Under the pieces are notes generated by a model that did not search any database, was not told the origin of the DNA, and saw nothing but the letters and a program-made list of their open reading frames with translations. From Lacticaseibacillus camelliae DSM 22697 = JCM 13995 (GTDB lineage: Bacteria > Bacillota > Bacilli > Lactobacillales > Lactobacillaceae), in the NCBI RefSeq assembly GCF_001311195.1, contig NZ_BBAJ01000013.1, positions 1 to 44,130 on the forward strand: 44,130 nucleotides of DNA, written 5' to 3'. A program made the position numbers and the translations under genes. Shown piece by piece: positions 32,149-41,343 of the stretch. Each line of letters begins with the position of its first letter. Position 1 is the stretch's first letter.

Positions 32149-33618
<1,470 letters not shown>

Positions 33619-34372: not shown

Positions 34373-34537
34373 ATTAATCATACCTTCCTGGTTTACGTGT
34401 AATTACAACTTAACTGGTGACAAGCTTACCACCCTGCCAATAAAATACAAGCAGAAATTAAATAACTGCCCTGCACCGGGAGCAGCTCGGCACAAGGCAG
34501 CTATTTTAGAGGTGGTGTTAGTTGGAATTAACGGTCA

Positions 34538-35089
34538 TTAATCCTCGTCGTCATCATCGTCGTCAACTTCAACAAGGTCTTCCCAGGCCGTTTTACCCAG
34601 GAAACTCTGAAGCTTACGGACCGCCTGGTTGTTCTCCCCGCGTAACTTCGTGAGGTAAGCCGCCATGGCTGGGCGTTCCTCGCGCTCGGCCAGCTTGATG
34701 GCGCGGTCGATGTACATGTCTTCAGTGGTGAAGTCCTTGGCGGTCTGTGCGACCATGTTGGCGGCGGTGTCGTACTTCAACCGGCCGTCTTCCTGCAGCC
34801 CGGTGTACTTCGCGAATTCACCAGTCGTGCTGGGGACGATTTGATCCTCATCCAACAGCACCTCGCCGATTTCGTCGATTTGCTGGCGGTTCTGCGCGAT
34901 CAGCTGCTGATAGAAATCTGCAACGGCCAGGCTTTGCTCGCCTTTCACGTACCAGGCGACCTGGTGCATCTTGACGTTCATCACGAACAGATTCGCGACG
35001 ATGTGGCCAGTCATGGCTCCAGCGGTTGGCTTGTGGTGATCCAGATCCGCTTGCTTCACTTCTGCTTCGTATTGTTCATCAATTGTCAT
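34538..35089 (-). CDS. Dps-like ferritin (DNA-protection/iron storage) protein
   Basis: 183 residues. The ferritin-like helices hold the Dps pattern: NLFVMNVKMHQVAWYVKGEQ (ferroxidase His in helix A) and QQIDEIGEVLLDEDQ (metal-binding Asp/Glu in helix B), followed by FTTEDMYIDRAIKLAEREER. The extreme C-terminus is a run of acidic residues (EVDDDDDDED), which could bind cations. Dps oligomers oxidise and store iron and protect DNA from peroxide. It is the last gene of the metal cluster, 10 bases after the HMA gene, on the same strand as the P-type ATPase. This links the ATPase to iron or another redox metal. Confidence 0.82.
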   Translation of the reverse strand: MTIDEQYEAEVKQADLDHHKPTAGAMTGHIVANLFVMNVKMHQVAWYVKGEQSLAVADFYQQLIAQNRQQIDEIGEVLLDEDQIVPSTTGEFAKYTGLQEDGRLKYDTAANMVAQTAKDFTTEDMYIDRAIKLAEREERPAMAAYLTKLRGENNQAVRKLQSFLGKTAWEDLVEVDDDDDDED

Positions 35090-35099
35090 GATTTGCCCC

Positions 35100-35333
35100 C
35101 TACTCGTTGTCCTTCACGCGCACTTTTTTGACTTCGTAACCCAGCTTGGTGACGACGTCCGACAACTGATCGGCAGAGGTCTGGGTGTCGTCGAAATCGG
35201 CCTTCACCTTTCCGGCATTGAACAGCACCTTCACATTGGAAACCCCAGGCTGCTGCTTAACGGCGCCTTCGATCTTGGTGAGGCAAGACGGGCAGGTTAG
35301 CTGATCCAGTTGCATCGTAATTTTTTTACTCAT
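35100..35333 (-). CDS. Heavy-metal-associated (HMA) domain chaperone
   Basis: 77 residues, a single HMA ferredoxin-like domain: ITMQLDQLTCPSCLTKIEGA carries the metal-binding Cys-x2-Cys (residues 14-17), with PGVSNVKVLFNAGKVKADFD as the second and third strands. The residue before the first Cys is Thr, not Met. It would shuttle a soft metal ion, classically Cu(I), to the ATPase, which lacks an N-terminal HMA domain of its own. The gene has its own copy of the regulatory module (35359-35413) inside the end of the ATPase gene and is 10 bases from the Dps gene. Confidence 0.85.
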   Translation of the reverse strand: MSKKITMQLDQLTCPSCLTKIEGAVKQQPGVSNVKVLFNAGKVKADFDDTQTSADQLSDVVTKLGYEVKKVRVKDNE

Positions 35334-35358
35334 TGAAAAGACTCCCTTTCGCTTATTT

Positions 35359-35413
35359 ACAAGTTCATTCTACCGGGTTCGTTACTTCGTGGAATTGACC
35401 GCGGTCAAGTTCG
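35359..35413 (-). promoter_or_regulatory. Duplicated regulatory module, copy B (upstream of HMA-Dps)
   Basis: On the minus strand CGAACTTGA, a perfect dyad TTGACCGCGGTCAA (35395-35408) and, exactly 46 bases after the first element, TGAACTTGT followed by AATAAG. The same elements with the same 46-base spacing stand upstream of the ATPase gene (copy A). A possible -10, TAGAAT, is at 35371-35366. Copy B lies over the last codons of the ATPase gene, so an internal promoter for HMA-Dps is likely. Confidence 0.6.
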
Positions 35414-37304
35414 CGACATTTTCTGATTTTTCTTTGTCGTCGTTTTTCCCGTAGTTGATCAGGCGCATCGCGTTGAAAATAACGACTAAGATAGAAGCCT
35501 CGTGAACGAACATCCCACTGGCCATGTAGATGAAGCCGGCGATCAGGCCCAGCAGCAGGAAGGCGACCACGGCAATGGAGATGAAGATGTTCTCACGCGT
35601 GTTAAGCACGGTCTTCTTGGCCAGCTTGTACGCGTGGTCCAAGGCCGCAAAGCTGGACTTCATCAGGACAATGTCAGAGGTTTCAATCGCGACGTCGGTG
35701 CCTGAGCCCATCGCGATGCCGATGTCGGCAGTGGCCAGGGACGGGCTGTCGTTGATGCCATCCCCAACGAAGGCAACGGTGCGGCCTTCGTCTTCAAACT
35801 TCTTCACATAAGTAACTTTGTCCTGCGGCAGCAAGTCAGCGTGGACCTCATCGATCCCCAGCTGATCCGCGACGTAATTCGCGGTTTGCGTGTTATCACC
35901 GGTCAGCATGACCAGGTGCTTGGCACCGGCCTTTTTCAGCTCGGCCAGCTCATCTTTCAGGCCTTCGCGAATGGTGTCGGCGATGGCGTAAATCGCGGCG
36001 ACCTGCGTATCAACGGCCACAATGACAATCGAACTGCCGGTGGCCTGGAACTGACTTAGCGTCTGCGCCTGTTCGTCGGTTAGCTGAACGTGGTGCGCCT
36101 CAAGCAGCTTGCGGTTCCCGGCGCATACGGTGTGACCGGCAACGGTGGCAGTGATGCCTTGGCCCTTAATGGTGCTGCTGTTTTCGATTGACAGAGACTG
36201 ATAATCCAGGTGAGCGTCATCGGCGGCCTGCGTCAGCGCACGGCCCAGTGGGTGATCGGACAGCGCCTCGACGGCGGCGGTCAGCTGTAATACCTGGTTG
36301 GCGTCTGGACCGTAAACTTTGCTGTCTGCCAACGCGGTTTTGCCTGTGGTCAGCGTGCCGGTTTTATCAAACACGAAGGTGTCGACTTTCGAGAAGGTAT
36401 CCATGGCGGAGCCCCCCTTGACCAAAATGCCGCGTTTGGCGCCGTTGCCGATGCCAGCCACGTTGGAAACCGGCGCGCCGATGACCAAAGCCCCAGGGCA
36501 CCCAAGCACCAACACCGTGATGGCAAGCTTAAAGTCGCGGGAAATCAGGCCGACCACCAACGCGATGACCAGCACCGCCGGGGTGTAATACTTGGCGAAG
36601 CGGTCGATAAACTTTTCGGCATGGGACTTCGTGTCCTGCGCGTCTTCAACCAGCTCGATGATCTTGGCAAACGTCGTGTCGTCCCCGACCTTAGTCGCCT
36701 TGATCTTCACGTACCCGTCGCTGAGCAGCGTGCCGGAGAACACGGTATCCCCGGCGTTCTTGGTGACGGCGCGCGACTCGCCGGTCACGGCAGCTTCATC
36801 GGCGTACCCTTGACCGTCGACGATTTCACCGTCGACCGGGATCGAACCACCGGTTTTGACTTGGACCACGTCGCCGACATCCAGGTCGTCAACGTCGACT
36901 TCTTCAATTGTCCCGTCATCGTGGACCAGTTCCGCGCTGGTCGGTGCCATTTCGGTCAGGCTCTTAATGGACTGACGGGTCTTGGTGAGGGTTTTCTGTT
37001 CCAGGAAGTTCCCGAACAGGAAGAGGAAGGTCACAATGGCACTTTCGTTGTACTCACCGATGATAAACGCCCCGATCACCGCGATAGTGACCAGCAGTTC
37101 AATGCTGATGACCTTCACGCGCAGCGCCTGGTAGGCATGCAAGAAAATCGGAATGCCGGCAACAATCGAAGCAACCATCAAGCTGACCGTATAGACCAGC
37201 GGTGCATTCAGCAGGTATCGGCCTGCGTACCCGAGCACAATCAGAAGCGCCGAAACGGCGGTGAGCTGAGTCGTGTGCTTTTCGATCCACATCTGAAATT
37301 TCAT
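35382..37304 (-). CDS. P1B heavy-metal-translocating P-type ATPase
   Basis: About 640 residues with all P-type motifs: TGES (phosphatase loop), the membrane metal motif LGCPGALVIGAPVSN, DKTGT (phosphorylated Asp), SDHPLGRAL (His-Pro of P1B types), TGDN and GDGINDSP. There is no N-terminal metal-binding domain; the separate HMA protein may serve that role. The metal motif is Cys-Pro-Gly instead of Cys-Pro-Cys (Cu, Cd, Zn) or Ser-Pro-Cys, so the metal is uncertain; linkage to Dps and a copper oxidase further on suggests a redox metal. The start at 37304 (MKFQMW) has GGAG upstream. It is divergent from the MarR gene. Confidence 0.9.
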   Translation of the reverse strand: MKFQMWIEKHTTQLTAVSALLIVLGYAGRYLLNAPLVYTVSLMVASIVAGIPIFLHAYQALRVKVISIELLVTIAVIGAFIIGEYNESAIVTFLFLFGNFLEQKTLTKTRQSIKSLTEMAPTSAELVHDDGTIEEVDVDDLDVGDVVQVKTGGSIPVDGEIVDGQGYADEAAVTGESRAVTKNAGDTVFSGTLLSDGYVKIKATKVGDDTTFAKIIELVEDAQDTKSHAEKFIDRFAKYYTPAVLVIALVVGLISRDFKLAITVLVLGCPGALVIGAPVSNVAGIGNGAKRGILVKGGSAMDTFSKVDTFVFDKTGTLTTGKTALADSKVYGPDANQVLQLTAAVEALSDHPLGRALTQAADDAHLDYQSLSIENSSTIKGQGITATVAGHTVCAGNRKLLEAHHVQLTDEQAQTLSQFQATGSSIVIVAVDTQVAAIYAIADTIREGLKDELAELKKAGAKHLVMLTGDNTQTANYVADQLGIDEVHADLLPQDKVTYVKKFEDEGRTVAFVGDGINDSPSLATADIGIAMGSGTDVAIETSDIVLMKSSFAALDHAYKLAKKTVLNTRENIFISIAVVAFLLLGLIAGFIYMASGMFVHEASILVVIFNAMRLINYGKNDDKEKSENVANLTAVNSTK

Positions 37305-37364
37305 ATCTTCCACTCTCCTTGAAGTTGACCGTTTCGACGCCTGCCGAATGGCCTTTCCTTATTG

Positions 37365-37419
37365 ACAAGTTCAGCTTAAGGCATAGCAGAAAGATTCGAC
37401 TTGACCAGCATCAAGTTCG
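37365..37419 (-). promoter_or_regulatory. Duplicated regulatory module, copy A (upstream of the ATPase)
   Basis: On the minus strand CGAACTTGA (37419-37411), a dyad TTGA-N6-TCAA (37401-37414 on the plus strand reads TTGACC-AGCA-TCAA), and TGAACTTGT (37373-37365) exactly 46 bases later. It is the same arrangement as copy B (35359-35413). The two should bind the same regulator. Confidence 0.6.
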
Positions 37420-37443
37420 CAGAAAATCGCTGAAAAAGTTTTT

Positions 37444-37502
37444 TTAGTTAGTCCCTATTGACAAAAACTAACTAAGTGATTACACTTGTTTCGTTAGTTA
37501 GT
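37444..37502 (+). promoter_or_regulatory. MarR promoter with three operator half-sites
   Basis: The -35 TTGACA (37458-37463) and -10 TACACT (37481-37486) are 17 bases apart. The 9-mer TTAGTTAGT occurs at 37444-37452 and 37494-37502 and inverted (ACTAACTAA) at 37467-37475, bracketing the promoter. This is a typical autoregulatory layout; the inverted pairs suit a MarR dimer. Confidence 0.75.
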
Positions 37503-37547
37503 CTTATTATATGGCTAGCTAAATAAAATTCTTGGAGGTAATCGCTG

Positions 37548-38204
37548 ATGACTCAAGATACTCAACAATTGCTTAGACTCTTTGGCCGCCTGTTCACGCA
37601 GCGAGGCTTTGCGCAAAGTGCCATGTGGACGCTGCATTCCGACCACCGCGAAGGCGACGCCCCGCGCGGCCAACTTCGCGTGCTGCGCCTGATTGCACAG
37701 CACGATCACCTGACTAATGCCGACATCGTTGAGGCCCTCGACATCCGGCCCAGCTCCGCCAGCGCCATGGTGGCAAAGCTCGAGGACGCAGGTTTGATCA
37801 CCCGCATCCCATCCGAAGCCGACGGCCGCGTGCAGTTGATTTCACTTACCGATGACGGCAAACAGTTCATTGAAAGTGTCCGGAACGACAAGGACCAGCT
37901 GGCGGATAAAATGTTCGCCGGTCTGACTGCAGACGAACAGGCGCAGTTGACCGGGTTGATTCTGAAGCTTGTCGGTAGCCTGGAAACCGGGGACCAGGAC
38001 CAGGCTGTCGATGCCTACTTTGAAAAGCTCGGCCAGTTTGGCCCGCGGCGGCACCACGGCCACCACGGCTACCGGCAGGAGTGGGACGGCGGGCCCAGCC
38101 GCGGCTTTGGCGGTTATGGCGAACGCCCTGATTTTGGCGGCAGACCGCACGGACCTCGAGGCGGCAGACCCGGTTCGCACCCTGGTGATAAGGCCGCCGA
38201 CTAG
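37548..38204 (+). CDS. MarR family regulator with His/Gly/Arg-rich tail
   Basis: 218 residues. Residues 1-150 form a MarR winged helix (GQLRVLRLIAQHDHLTNADI, VEALDIRPSSASAMVAKLED, wing ITRIPSEADGRVQLISLTDD) and dimerisation helices. The last 50 or so residues are low-complexity, rich in His, Gly, Arg and Pro (RRHHGHHGYRQEWDGGPSRG, GERPDFGGRPHGPRGGRPG), far longer than usual. The tail could bind metal ions or nucleic acid. The gene is divergent from the P-type ATPase, with its own operator array. It may sense metal or oxidative stress; regulation of the ATPase is possible but the TTAGTTAGT sites are not in the ATPase module. Confidence 0.85.
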   Translation: MTQDTQQLLRLFGRLFTQRGFAQSAMWTLHSDHREGDAPRGQLRVLRLIAQHDHLTNADIVEALDIRPSSASAMVAKLEDAGLITRIPSEADGRVQLISLTDDGKQFIESVRNDKDQLADKMFAGLTADEQAQLTGLILKLVGSLETGDQDQAVDAYFEKLGQFGPRRHHGHHGYRQEWDGGPSRGFGGYGERPDFGGRPHGPRGGRPGSHPGDKAAD

Positions 38205-38218
38205 ACGTACCCCACACA

Positions 38219-38263
38219 CGAAAAAAGGGGCGCCACTCTCACATAGAGTAGCGTCCCTTTTCG
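38219..38263. terminator. Bidirectional terminator
   Basis: A long stem (AAAAGGG-x-CGC-x-ACTCT with AGAGT-x-GCG-x-CCCTTTT) between the convergent MarR and cupin genes. Confidence 0.85.
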
Positions 38264-38282
38264 TCGCGGCAAAGAGTTTCAC

Positions 38283-38623
38283 TCAAGACTGGGCCGGTTT
38301 CACAACGGTCAGCAGCATCTGAAAACCCTCCTTGGCATACAGAGAGTGGCGCTGACCGGCGGGAATCACAATAGTCTGACCAGCCGCCACCATGTACGCC
38401 TGATCAGCAATCGTGATTTCTGCCACGCCGCTCAACACGTTCACCATGCATCGCCAGCGGCTTCGTGACCGCCGATCTCTTCGCCAGTACCCACCGCAAA
38501 CAGGGTCAACGTCAAATCGGGGCGCTGGACCAGGGTGCGACTGGTGACTTCACCGTCGGCTAAGTCAATCAGCTGCTTGAGGTCGACCACGGTGGCTTGT
38601 GGAATTTTATCAATGTAGGTCAT
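38283..38623 (-). pseudogene. Cupin-domain protein (frameshifted)
   Basis: About 112 residues, a small single-domain cupin. VGTGEEIGGHEAAGDA (metal-site His, though the second usual His is absent) joins, across one missing base near 38445, to MVNVLSGVAEITIADQAYMV and VIPAGQRHSLYAKEGFQMLL (second motif with His). The ATG overlaps the stop of the upstream cupin (ATGA). Such proteins often bind metals or fold around small ligands and act as isomerases or in stress; nothing specific is visible. The reconstructed stop is at 38283-38285. Confidence 0.75.
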
Positions 38624-38943
38624 TTGCGAACCTCACTTTCGATTTGCATGAACTTACAGGGCTGCTCAGCGCTTAACGTATGCGCCGTGCCGGCTGGGAC
38701 CACGAGCATCGCTCCAGGCTCGACGACGGTGCGATGATCCGTAAAAATGACAGTCAGTGCTCCATCGAGGCACTGAAAAAGACGTGTTCGGCTGGCAGTT
38801 TCGGTGCTGATGGTTTCCCCTGCTGCCATCGCGTACACTGTCAGCGGCAGCGTAATGCCCAGGCGGCGGGACAATGAGCGGCTGGCGATTTGATGGTCGT
38901 GGTACGGGACCAAAGTCGCCAGTTCAAGCTTAGTTTCTGACAT
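38620..38943 (-). CDS. Cupin-domain protein
   Basis: 107 residues. The cupin barrel is visible in LFQCLDGALTVIFTDHRTVV and VEPGAMLVVPAGTAHTLSAE (second motif G-x5-P-x-G-x2-H). The first cupin motif is weak: the histidines are replaced (AAGETISTETASRTRLFQ), so metal binding is doubtful. The start at 38943 (MSETKLE) has GGAGG upstream. It overlaps the following cupin gene by four bases, so the pair is translationally coupled and may form a hetero-oligomer. Its relative shares the same fold but not obvious close sequence. Confidence 0.72.
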   Translation of the reverse strand: MSETKLELATLVPYHDHQIASRSLSRRLGITLPLTVYAMAAGETISTETASRTRLFQCLDGALTVIFTDHRTVVEPGAMLVVPAGTAHTLSAEQPCKFMQIESEVRK

Positions 38944-39136
38944 CGTGTTACCTCCACTATTCATTACATTAATCATAACCTAGGACCGTCTGGAATTGAT
39001 ACCGTCAAGAGCCTCGGCTGACGGCCGCACTGACGCCAAGGCAAATTAGTTGCCTCAACTCAGCGCCCCAGCATACACTAACCGCGAGACTGGCTAGCAC
39101 CAGCCACTCACCGGGCACAAAGGGAGGCCAGCGGGC

Positions 39137-39671: not shown

Positions 39672-41209
39672 CTACATCTTCATACCCATCTTTTTGTATG
39701 AATCCATGCCGGCCATCCACATGGTGTCTGGATCCACGCCACGCTCTTTGGCGAAGGCTGAGTCAGCGTCTCCATATCCATGAGCCTGTACTTCGGCATC
39801 GGCTTGTTCGGATCGTAAGTCTGAATCTGGGCCATCATGCCGCCGTCTTCGTGCTCGATGATGTGGCAGTGATACATGTAGACGCCTGGCAGGTCGAACC
39901 GCACAAGTAGCCGAACCGTTTCACCAGGGTTAACGCCAACGGTATCCTTGTACCCATGCTCGTTCGGATAAGGCGCACCACCGTTGCGGGAAATGACCAG
40001 GAACTGGGTGCCGTGCACATGGAACGGGTGAACCATGCCGCCGTGCATGGTGTTGGTATTGGTGACATCCCAGTACTGAGCTAAGCCAATCGGCTGCGTG
40101 GCATCGATGCGCTGCATGTTGAACTTCTTACCGTCGATGGCAACTTGCTCATCCATCCCCGACATCACGATCTTGCGGACCGGCGTCGTCGGCAGCACTT
40201 TTGGCGCGTGAATGTCGATCAGGTGATCCGGCAGCACACTGTTATCCGGCTTGAAAGCGTGAATGCGGAACTTCACGATCGGCACATCATCGGAGAACAG
40301 GGTAACCGTGTCGCCTTCCTTATAGTTCTTAAAGTCGACAATGATCTCGGCGCGTTCCGCGCAGGTCAGCATCAGGTGTGTGAAGTGAACTGGCTCCGGC
40401 AGCAAGCTGGAATCACTGGCAATCTGGGTGAATTCCAAATCGTCGGAGAAATGCAGGCGCCACTCACGGCGGTTGGCCCCATCAAGGATCCGCAGACGCA
40501 GCTTTTGGGTGGTGACATCAAAGACTGGGTTGACGGTCCCGTTGATCATCGCAGTCGGGCCCTGCACACCATCTGGATCGTAATCGGCGTGGTAGTCCCA
40601 CTGGTTATTTTCGTGGAAGCGGCGGTCTTGGAGGACCAGCGGAATGTCATCAACGCCGTAAGTCCGCGGCAGCGGCAGGCTGGCCTCGTGCTGATCACGC
40701 ACCAGCACCATTGCGGCTAAACCATGCCAGACCTGCTCAGCGGTCGACGGACACGGGTGCGCGTGCAGCCAAGTCGTCGCGGCCGGCTGGTCAAGCGTGA
40801 AGTCGATTTGCTTGCTTTCGCCAGGGTAAACCGGCGCGTGGCAGCCGCCATCCACGTACGGACCGGATACCGACAACCCATGCCAGTGGAATGTGGTCAA
40901 TTCATCAAGCGAATTTTTCAATGTCACATGAATGTGCTTGCCGACTTCAAACGCCAGCGTCGTGCCGAGCAGCGGCGCGTTGTAACCCCAAGTCTTGGTC
41001 TTGGCGCCGGGCAGGATCTGGGTCTCGCCCTTCTGCGCCTCCAACGTATACCACGCATCGGTGTCAGTCTCTTTGTCAGGCTTTAACAGCGGCGGGATCG
41101 CCAGCTGGGACTCCGGCGCGTCCGCGACTTCAAGCGGCACATAGCCGCCGTCGTGGGTGTTGTACGCCGGTTCATCGAAAAAGTAATCATCATACACATG
41201 CTGTGTCAT
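39672..41209 (-). pseudogene. Multicopper oxidase (frameshift near the C-terminus)
   Basis: About 511 residues, three cupredoxin domains. Copper sites: FHWHGLSVSG (residues about 107-116), WLHAHP, HPFHVHGTQFLVI and YHCHIIEHEDGGMM (Type 1 and trinuclear ligands, with Met in the axial position). It is of the CueO/CotA/bilirubin-oxidase type and oxidises Cu(I), Mn(II) or phenols with O2. No signal peptide is seen, so it may be cytoplasmic. Near base 39763 one base shifts the frame; restored, the end is AFAKERGVDPDTMWMAGMDS then YKKMGMKM, a Met-rich tail suited to Cu(I). The start at 41209 has GGGGAAAG. A Met-rich small protein lies divergently next to it. Confidence 0.88.
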
Positions 41210-41343
41210 AATCTTTCCCCTTTCATCATTGGCAAGGAAATTGTGCCTCACCTAAGTCCGATTCCATTTTAACACGCTTCCAGCCCGAAAACAGTGTAGA
41301 ATAGAATCGTTATAAATAGTGGATAGATCTGGAGGGGTGTAAA

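Follow-up and report, generated by a model that had tools for sequence, protein, structure and literature searches.

Introduction

CopY/CopZ copper operons combine a P1B ATPase and a small chaperone of the HMA type, and the membrane motif of P1B pumps is usually CPC or SPC. In the class II architecture of Crp/Fnr promoters, a dyad at -41.5 replaces the -35 element, which is a geometry of activation. Escherichia coli FNR uses a box resembling TTGAT-N4-ATCAA at -41.5 (class II) and an E--SR recognition helix; FNR proper contains four cluster cysteines and is a [4Fe-4S] oxygen sensor. Gram-positive FNR-like proteins often carry two cysteines only, and the cluster activation of FNR-like proteins is disputed, as stated in PMC5039431. 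FlpA is listed among the metal-homeostasis regulons of the Lactobacillales in PMC3616900.

The type of control described here is familiar, and the regulator proposed for the operon is of the Crp/Fnr kind already known. The locus lies in a window of 44,130 nt from Lacticaseibacillus camelliae DSM 22697 = JCM 13995 (GCF_001311195.1, contig NZ_BBAJ01000013.1, positions 1-44,130), in which genes for a P-type ATPase, an HMA protein, and a Dps protein follow one another on the minus strand. Sequence comparison suggests, with a probability of about 0.87, that two copies of a promoter module in this operon, A and B, serve as class II promoters activated by a single regulator of the Crp/Fnr family (Flp type).

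Results

Operon and Proposed Promoter Geometry

The genes and the predicted regulatory elements are as follows.

35382 to 37304, minus strand: P1B-type heavy-metal ATPase, 640 aa (TIGR01525, 569.8 bits; cut-off 346.25)
35100 to 35333, minus strand: HMA-domain metallochaperone-like protein, 77 aa (PF00403; under the CopZ-model cut-offs)
34538 to 35089, minus strand: Dps/ferritin-like protein, 183 aa (PF00210)
37548 to 38204, plus strand: divergent MarR-family regulator, adjoining copy A and probably not the shared regulator
37398 to 37417, minus strand: extended Crp/Fnr dyad of copy A, AACTTGATGCTGGTCAAGTC (core 37414-37401; centre at -41.5 from the predicted start)
37373 to 37378, minus strand: predicted -10 of copy A, TAAGCT, weak (36 bases from the dyad start)
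37366, minus strand: predicted +1 of copy A, G (from the dyad/-10 geometry)
35392 to 35411, minus strand: extended Crp/Fnr dyad of copy B, AACTTGACCGCGGTCAATTC (core 35408-35395; within the last ATPase codons)
35367 to 35372, minus strand: predicted -10 of copy B, TAGAAT (directly past the ATPase stop codon)
35360, minus strand: predicted +1 of copy B, G (from the dyad/-10 geometry)

The ATPase passes the cut-offs of both the Cd-type and the Cu-type NCBIfam models, and the solved structures nearest to it include Cu, Cd, and Zn pumps. Its membrane motif is CPG, as in 30 of 30 orthologues, and no HMA domain was found within the ATPase itself. Among named relatives, the closest matches found come from Lacticaseibacillus hegangensis (94%) and L. 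jixianensis (93%).

The surroundings of the operon have several features of their own. Between the MarR gene and copy A, direct and inverted repeats of ACTAACTAA/TTAGTTAGT (37438-37505) overlap the predicted MarR promoter and are perhaps MarR's own operator; the C-terminus of the MarR protein is rich in Gly/His. On the far side of the operon, an apparent single glycosidase gene (32286-33618, named by eye) is divided between two overlapping open reading frames, 32286-33203 and 33190-33618, which points to a disrupted gene or to misassembly. At 38300-38623, a small cupin-like frame (38441-38623) stops early next to a cupin gene at 38620-38976. A multicopper oxidase gene is located nearby (39680-41251), and a homologue is also close to the operon in two other loci (L125 and L085).

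A sequence-only reading of this window had described the same module as occurring twice with an identical 46-base geometry, its TTGA-N6-TCAA dyad preceding the P-type ATPase and again HMA-Dps, with copy B lying over the last ATPase codons. A pattern search of the window reproduced this arrangement in full. On the minus strand, CGAACTTGA occurs at 37419-37411 (copy A) and 35413-35405 (copy B), and TTGA-N6-TCAA at 37414-37401 (TTGATGCTGGTCAA) and 35408-35395 (TTGACCGCGGTCAA), with no others in the 44,130 bases; GAACTTGT-N-AATAAG follows at 37372-37358 and 35366-35352. The distance between the starts of CGAACTTGA and TGAACTTGT is 46 bases in each copy (37419 to 37373; 35413 to 35367). The ATPase gene terminates with a stop codon whose last base is 35382; the copy B dyad is translated as N-L-T-A-V-N.

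The dyad geometry is best read as that of a class II Crp/Fnr promoter, with a -10 at a fixed spacing, no -35, and a +1 predicted from these elements; a -10 ending at -7 places the dyad centre at -41.5. Such an architecture would account for the 46-base distance being exact. The predicted -10 ends with the first T of TGAACTTGT; GAACTT then forms the discriminator, and the next G the putative +1. The second motif of the earlier description, TGAACTTGT-AATAAG, thus retains its spacing but not its standing as a regulatory box or second protein-binding site, since it comprises the final base of the -10 together with the discriminator and the start region. A sigma-70 scan of 34400-38300 returned no minus-strand promoter pairs; the three pairs found are all on the plus strand. 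TAAGCT of copy A shares only 3 of 6 positions with TATAAT.

Based on the observed sites, their spacing and conservation, the gene linkage, and the protein family, we infer binding, activation rather than repression, and the two start points. A dimer of the regulator would bind AAMTTGAY-N4-RTCAAKTT centred at -41.5, where a -35 would stand, and would recruit RNA polymerase to the -10 at its fixed spacing. Copy A would give rise to an ATPase-HMA-Dps transcript, and copy B, over the 3' end of the ATPase gene, to a second transcript of HMA-Dps. We propose that, as a result of this second transcript, the chaperone and iron storage could exceed the pump.

Occurrence in the Genome

The bare dyad is not rare in the genome from which the window derives: TTGAY-N4-RTCAA occurs 25 times, compared to 6 times for a reversed-pattern control. 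In contrast, TTGA-N6-TCAA-N20 to 30-TGAACTTG is found only twice, as copies A and B (control, 0), and the extended dyad AAMTTGAY-N4-RTCAAKTT, allowing no more than one mismatch, is found in three places (control, 0); two of them are copies A and B, and the third lies upstream of a Crp/Fnr gene. Allowing two mismatches raises these numbers to 18 and 6. A wider regulon in this genome was considered and rejected, as the other 22 core dyads all lie within stop-to-stop frames of at least 80 codons. Among these 22, TANNNT at offset 36 from the dyad start was found in none in the forward and in one in the reverse direction, the latter within a 481-codon frame. At 84.5% completeness (5.9% contamination), the assembly may lack further dyad sites of the genome.

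Across the 100 related genomes, the extended dyad with one mismatch is present in 99, including genomes in which no regulator was found, and genome-wide counts alone are therefore a poor guide; some genomes even score below the control (e.g., 1 versus 3 in G010).

Conservation in Related Genomes

Comparison with orthologous loci, which had been proposed as a check, was carried out on the best 30 ATPase loci among the 100 related genomes (L001-L030, with L001 being the window locus), and the dyads proved to be conserved. A dyad precedes the ATPase gene in 29 of these 30 loci (missing in L010), and one lies between the ATPase and HMA genes, as copy B does, in 23 of the 25 loci that have a neighbouring HMA gene; of the two exceptions, the gene order differs in L030 and dyads precede HMA there, and no dyad is present in L023. 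The prevalence of copy B lends comparative support to the internal promoter before HMA-Dps suggested by the sequence-only reading. In 52 of 53 sites in these loci, the distance from the dyad start to TANNNT is exactly 36 bases. When the best match to TATAAT was chosen freely among offsets 28-45, offset 36 was selected in 45 rows and offset 41 in 6; two rows, the A copies of L001 and L002, remained below the threshold (score <4).

For a broader survey, 111 unique TTGA-N6-TCAA sites (112 rows) were collected upstream of ATPase, HMA, Dps, or Crp matches, up to 300 bases upstream for copy A sites and within 260-400 bases for the others. The set comprises L001-L030 and further-genome regions but not L123-L126, which come from genomes that the set already includes, and it retains a few probably false sites, such as the dyad before Dps in L118 and the Crp-ward orientation in L105. 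A site is present in 33 of 36 further regions, which were hand-picked, many for a Crp match adjoining an ATPase match; no site was found in L112, L115, and L121. Conservation of the dyad core is given by construction, as the core served as the search key. TANNNT occurs at offset 36 in 100 of the 111 sites, the next commonest offset having 12, compared to 2 of 108 on the opposite strands and 6 of 40 for other dyads in these loci. The same offset is seen in other families of the order and, outside the 111 sites, in loci of Bacillus, Compostibacillus, Ornithinibacillus, and a spirochaete metagenome-assembled genome (L086-L089); in the distant locus L090, no site with TANNNT at offset 36 was found.

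A pyrimidine/purine step coincides with the predicted -1/+1 in 94 of the 111 sites, the runner-up among offsets 43-55 reaching 48. Modest conservation is left at offsets 47-52 of this set; it is best explained by the Y-1/R+1 step and the first transcribed bases, though a weak further element may also contribute at these positions.

In 18 of 23 loci, a loose test places copy B against or across the end of the ATPase frame. The corresponding stretch (35382-35411 in the window) is translated as NLTAV in L001-L005 and as KLDxxQ in L017, L020, and L024, with L027 using the same frame as the latter three. Since the putative operator is translated in frames that differ between lineages, the tail residues of the ATPase appear to follow the operator. 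An operator embedded in coding sequence would thus be kept although the protein tail changes.

Candidate Regulator

In the genome of the window, the Crp helix-turn-helix model PF13545 identifies one full-length protein in addition to two weak partial matches. This Crp/Fnr protein of 224 residues scores 78.3 bits with PF00027 and about 71.5-73.4 bits with PF13545, and it matches solved Crp/Fnr structures at ~1e-21 by sequence. It is the likely shared regulator of copies A and B. Its gene lies on another contig, directly downstream of a gene for a CDF-type cation exporter (L033:1-1719, G000:C6), and the third near-consensus dyad of the genome is located between the two, with TAGGCT at offset 36. 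The Crp/Fnr gene is therefore probably autoregulated in this genome, as judged by the position of this site. Several genomes with A or B sites have no dyad near the Crp gene (L065, L066, L068, L071, L150, L151, L152, L154, and L155), which indicates that autoregulation would not be universal.

In relatives, the regulator homologue is often encoded downstream of ATPase-HMA-Dps; in L105 and L106 it is divergent from an HMA-Dps-ATPase cluster, with one dyad in between. Among the matches listed (ATPase at no less than 45% identity, Crp at 100 bits or more), 58 of 59 genomes with an ATPase match also have a Crp match; the two genes are at most 6 kb apart in 34 of these 58 genomes and not in the other 24, in counts where draft contigs may hide linkage and where the genomes are related, so that the Fisher value for the linkage is no probability over independent trials. 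G050 has the ATPase and the sites, and no Crp match was found in it. Together, the conserved dyads and the linkage to Crp genes provide comparative support for a shared regulator, as the sequence-only reading had suspected.

The recognition helix reads E-T/S-I/V/L-S-R in 30 of 30 aligned regulators, and is an FNR-like E-T-I-S-R in the protein considered here. Cys9 and Cys107 are invariant in the same 30; the total number of cysteines is two in 27 regulators and three in 3. The protein has the characteristics of a two-cysteine FNR-like (Flp) regulator, namely cNMP-binding and Crp helix-turn-helix domains, an E--SR helix, and one cysteine each in the N-terminal region and the sensory domain. FNR proper is defined by four essential cysteines, and this regulator has two.

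Alternative Explanations

The gene closest to copy A encodes the divergent MarR-family protein, and the ACTAACTAA/TTAGTTAGT repeats lie between the two, so that the dyads could be imagined as MarR operators at both copies. The repeats are unlike the dyad, overlap the promoter predicted for MarR itself (37458-37486), and are absent from the letters around copy B. Moreover, a MarR gene adjoins the ATPase gene in just 5 of 30 loci, compared to 29 of 30 for the dyad; on this count MarR was rejected as the shared regulator, and control of both copies by it is very unlikely. Control by CopY was likewise rejected: a pattern search of the 44,130 bases found no cop box (TACANNTGTA) in the window, in agreement with the earlier statement that the dyad is not the CopY box.

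Equal spacing might also have been inherited through a recent tandem duplication of one promoter rather than selected. The identity of 0.80 between copies A and B over offsets 42-61 in the window would favour such an event, whereas the spacer (offsets 17-35) is only 0.21 identical there; this dissimilarity argues against a recent duplication and led to its rejection. Over offsets 42-61, identities are 0.80, 0.65, and 0.60 in L001-L003 but average only 0.44 within 22 genomes versus 0.39 across them (spacer, 0.33 versus 0.27), and the near identity of the start stretch is a feature of the closest species group. As the spacing is kept in 100 of 111 sites, including other gene orders, duplication is scarcely credible as its source. 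Somewhat less remote, yet still improbable, is the idea that the dyads are repressor operators or RNA hairpins, such as a terminator or attenuator between the ATPase and HMA genes, instead of activator sites. The dyad is palindromic, Crp/Fnr proteins can repress too, and a terminator-like match overlaps copy B. That match is on the plus strand (35400-35415), however, and no minus-strand terminator-like match was found at copy A or copy B. The same dyad precedes ATPase, HMA, and some Crp genes, and its centring at -41.5 in the absence of a -35 corresponds to the geometry of activation.

Discussion

The signal of the Crp/Fnr protein would probably be the metal or redox state of its two invariant cysteines, Cys9 and Cys107; this is the most speculative part of the model. 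A tentative extension, which we regard as possible but doubtful, is that the protein senses metal or oxidant directly through these cysteines and switches a widespread CPG-ATPase/HMA/Dps regulon for defence against metal and oxidative stress, while the operator in the 3' end of the ATPase gene shapes the tail of the pump (NLTAV; KLDxxQ) in a frame that varies by lineage. The analysis offers concrete targets, exact predicted starts, and a candidate regulator for the metal/Dps operon of many lactic acid bacteria, and sensing by two-cysteine FNR-like proteins becomes directly testable.

A literature search, with older primary papers mostly outside its coverage, did not find Flp control of this ATPase-HMA-Dps operon; the available portions of PMC4628341, PMC4505428, PMC8533434, and PMC6196286 contain nothing bearing on it.

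In its gene content, the operon resembles the CopY/CopZ operons, with a P1B ATPase next to a small HMA protein. It differs from them in that TACANNTGTA does not occur in the window, the HMA protein falls under the CopZ cut-offs, and the ATPase motif is CPG instead of CPC. With regard to the regulator, the protein can be likened at the family level to Lactobacillus casei FLP and Lactococcus lactis FlpA/FlpB, all being Crp/Fnr-family proteins of lactic acid bacteria; the half-site assigned to L. casei FLP reportedly differs from the TTGA dyad described here.

The class II promoters of E. coli FNR are similar in their box, the -41.5 position, and the E--SR helix. With two or three cysteines, the regulators considered here lack the four-cysteine [4Fe-4S] sensor of FNR. 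Mycobacterium tuberculosis Cmr, a distant Crp/Fnr homologue with another regulon, also has two cysteines, its only ones, which form a disulfide, and nitrosation is its main modulator according to PMC5499769. Streptococcus suis FlpS is a two-cysteine FNR-like activator, as is proposed for the regulator here; according to PMC5039431, a Dps-like gene is differentially expressed in the FlpS mutant, and FlpS activates the arginine deiminase system, unlike the metal-ATPase targets predicted for the present regulator.
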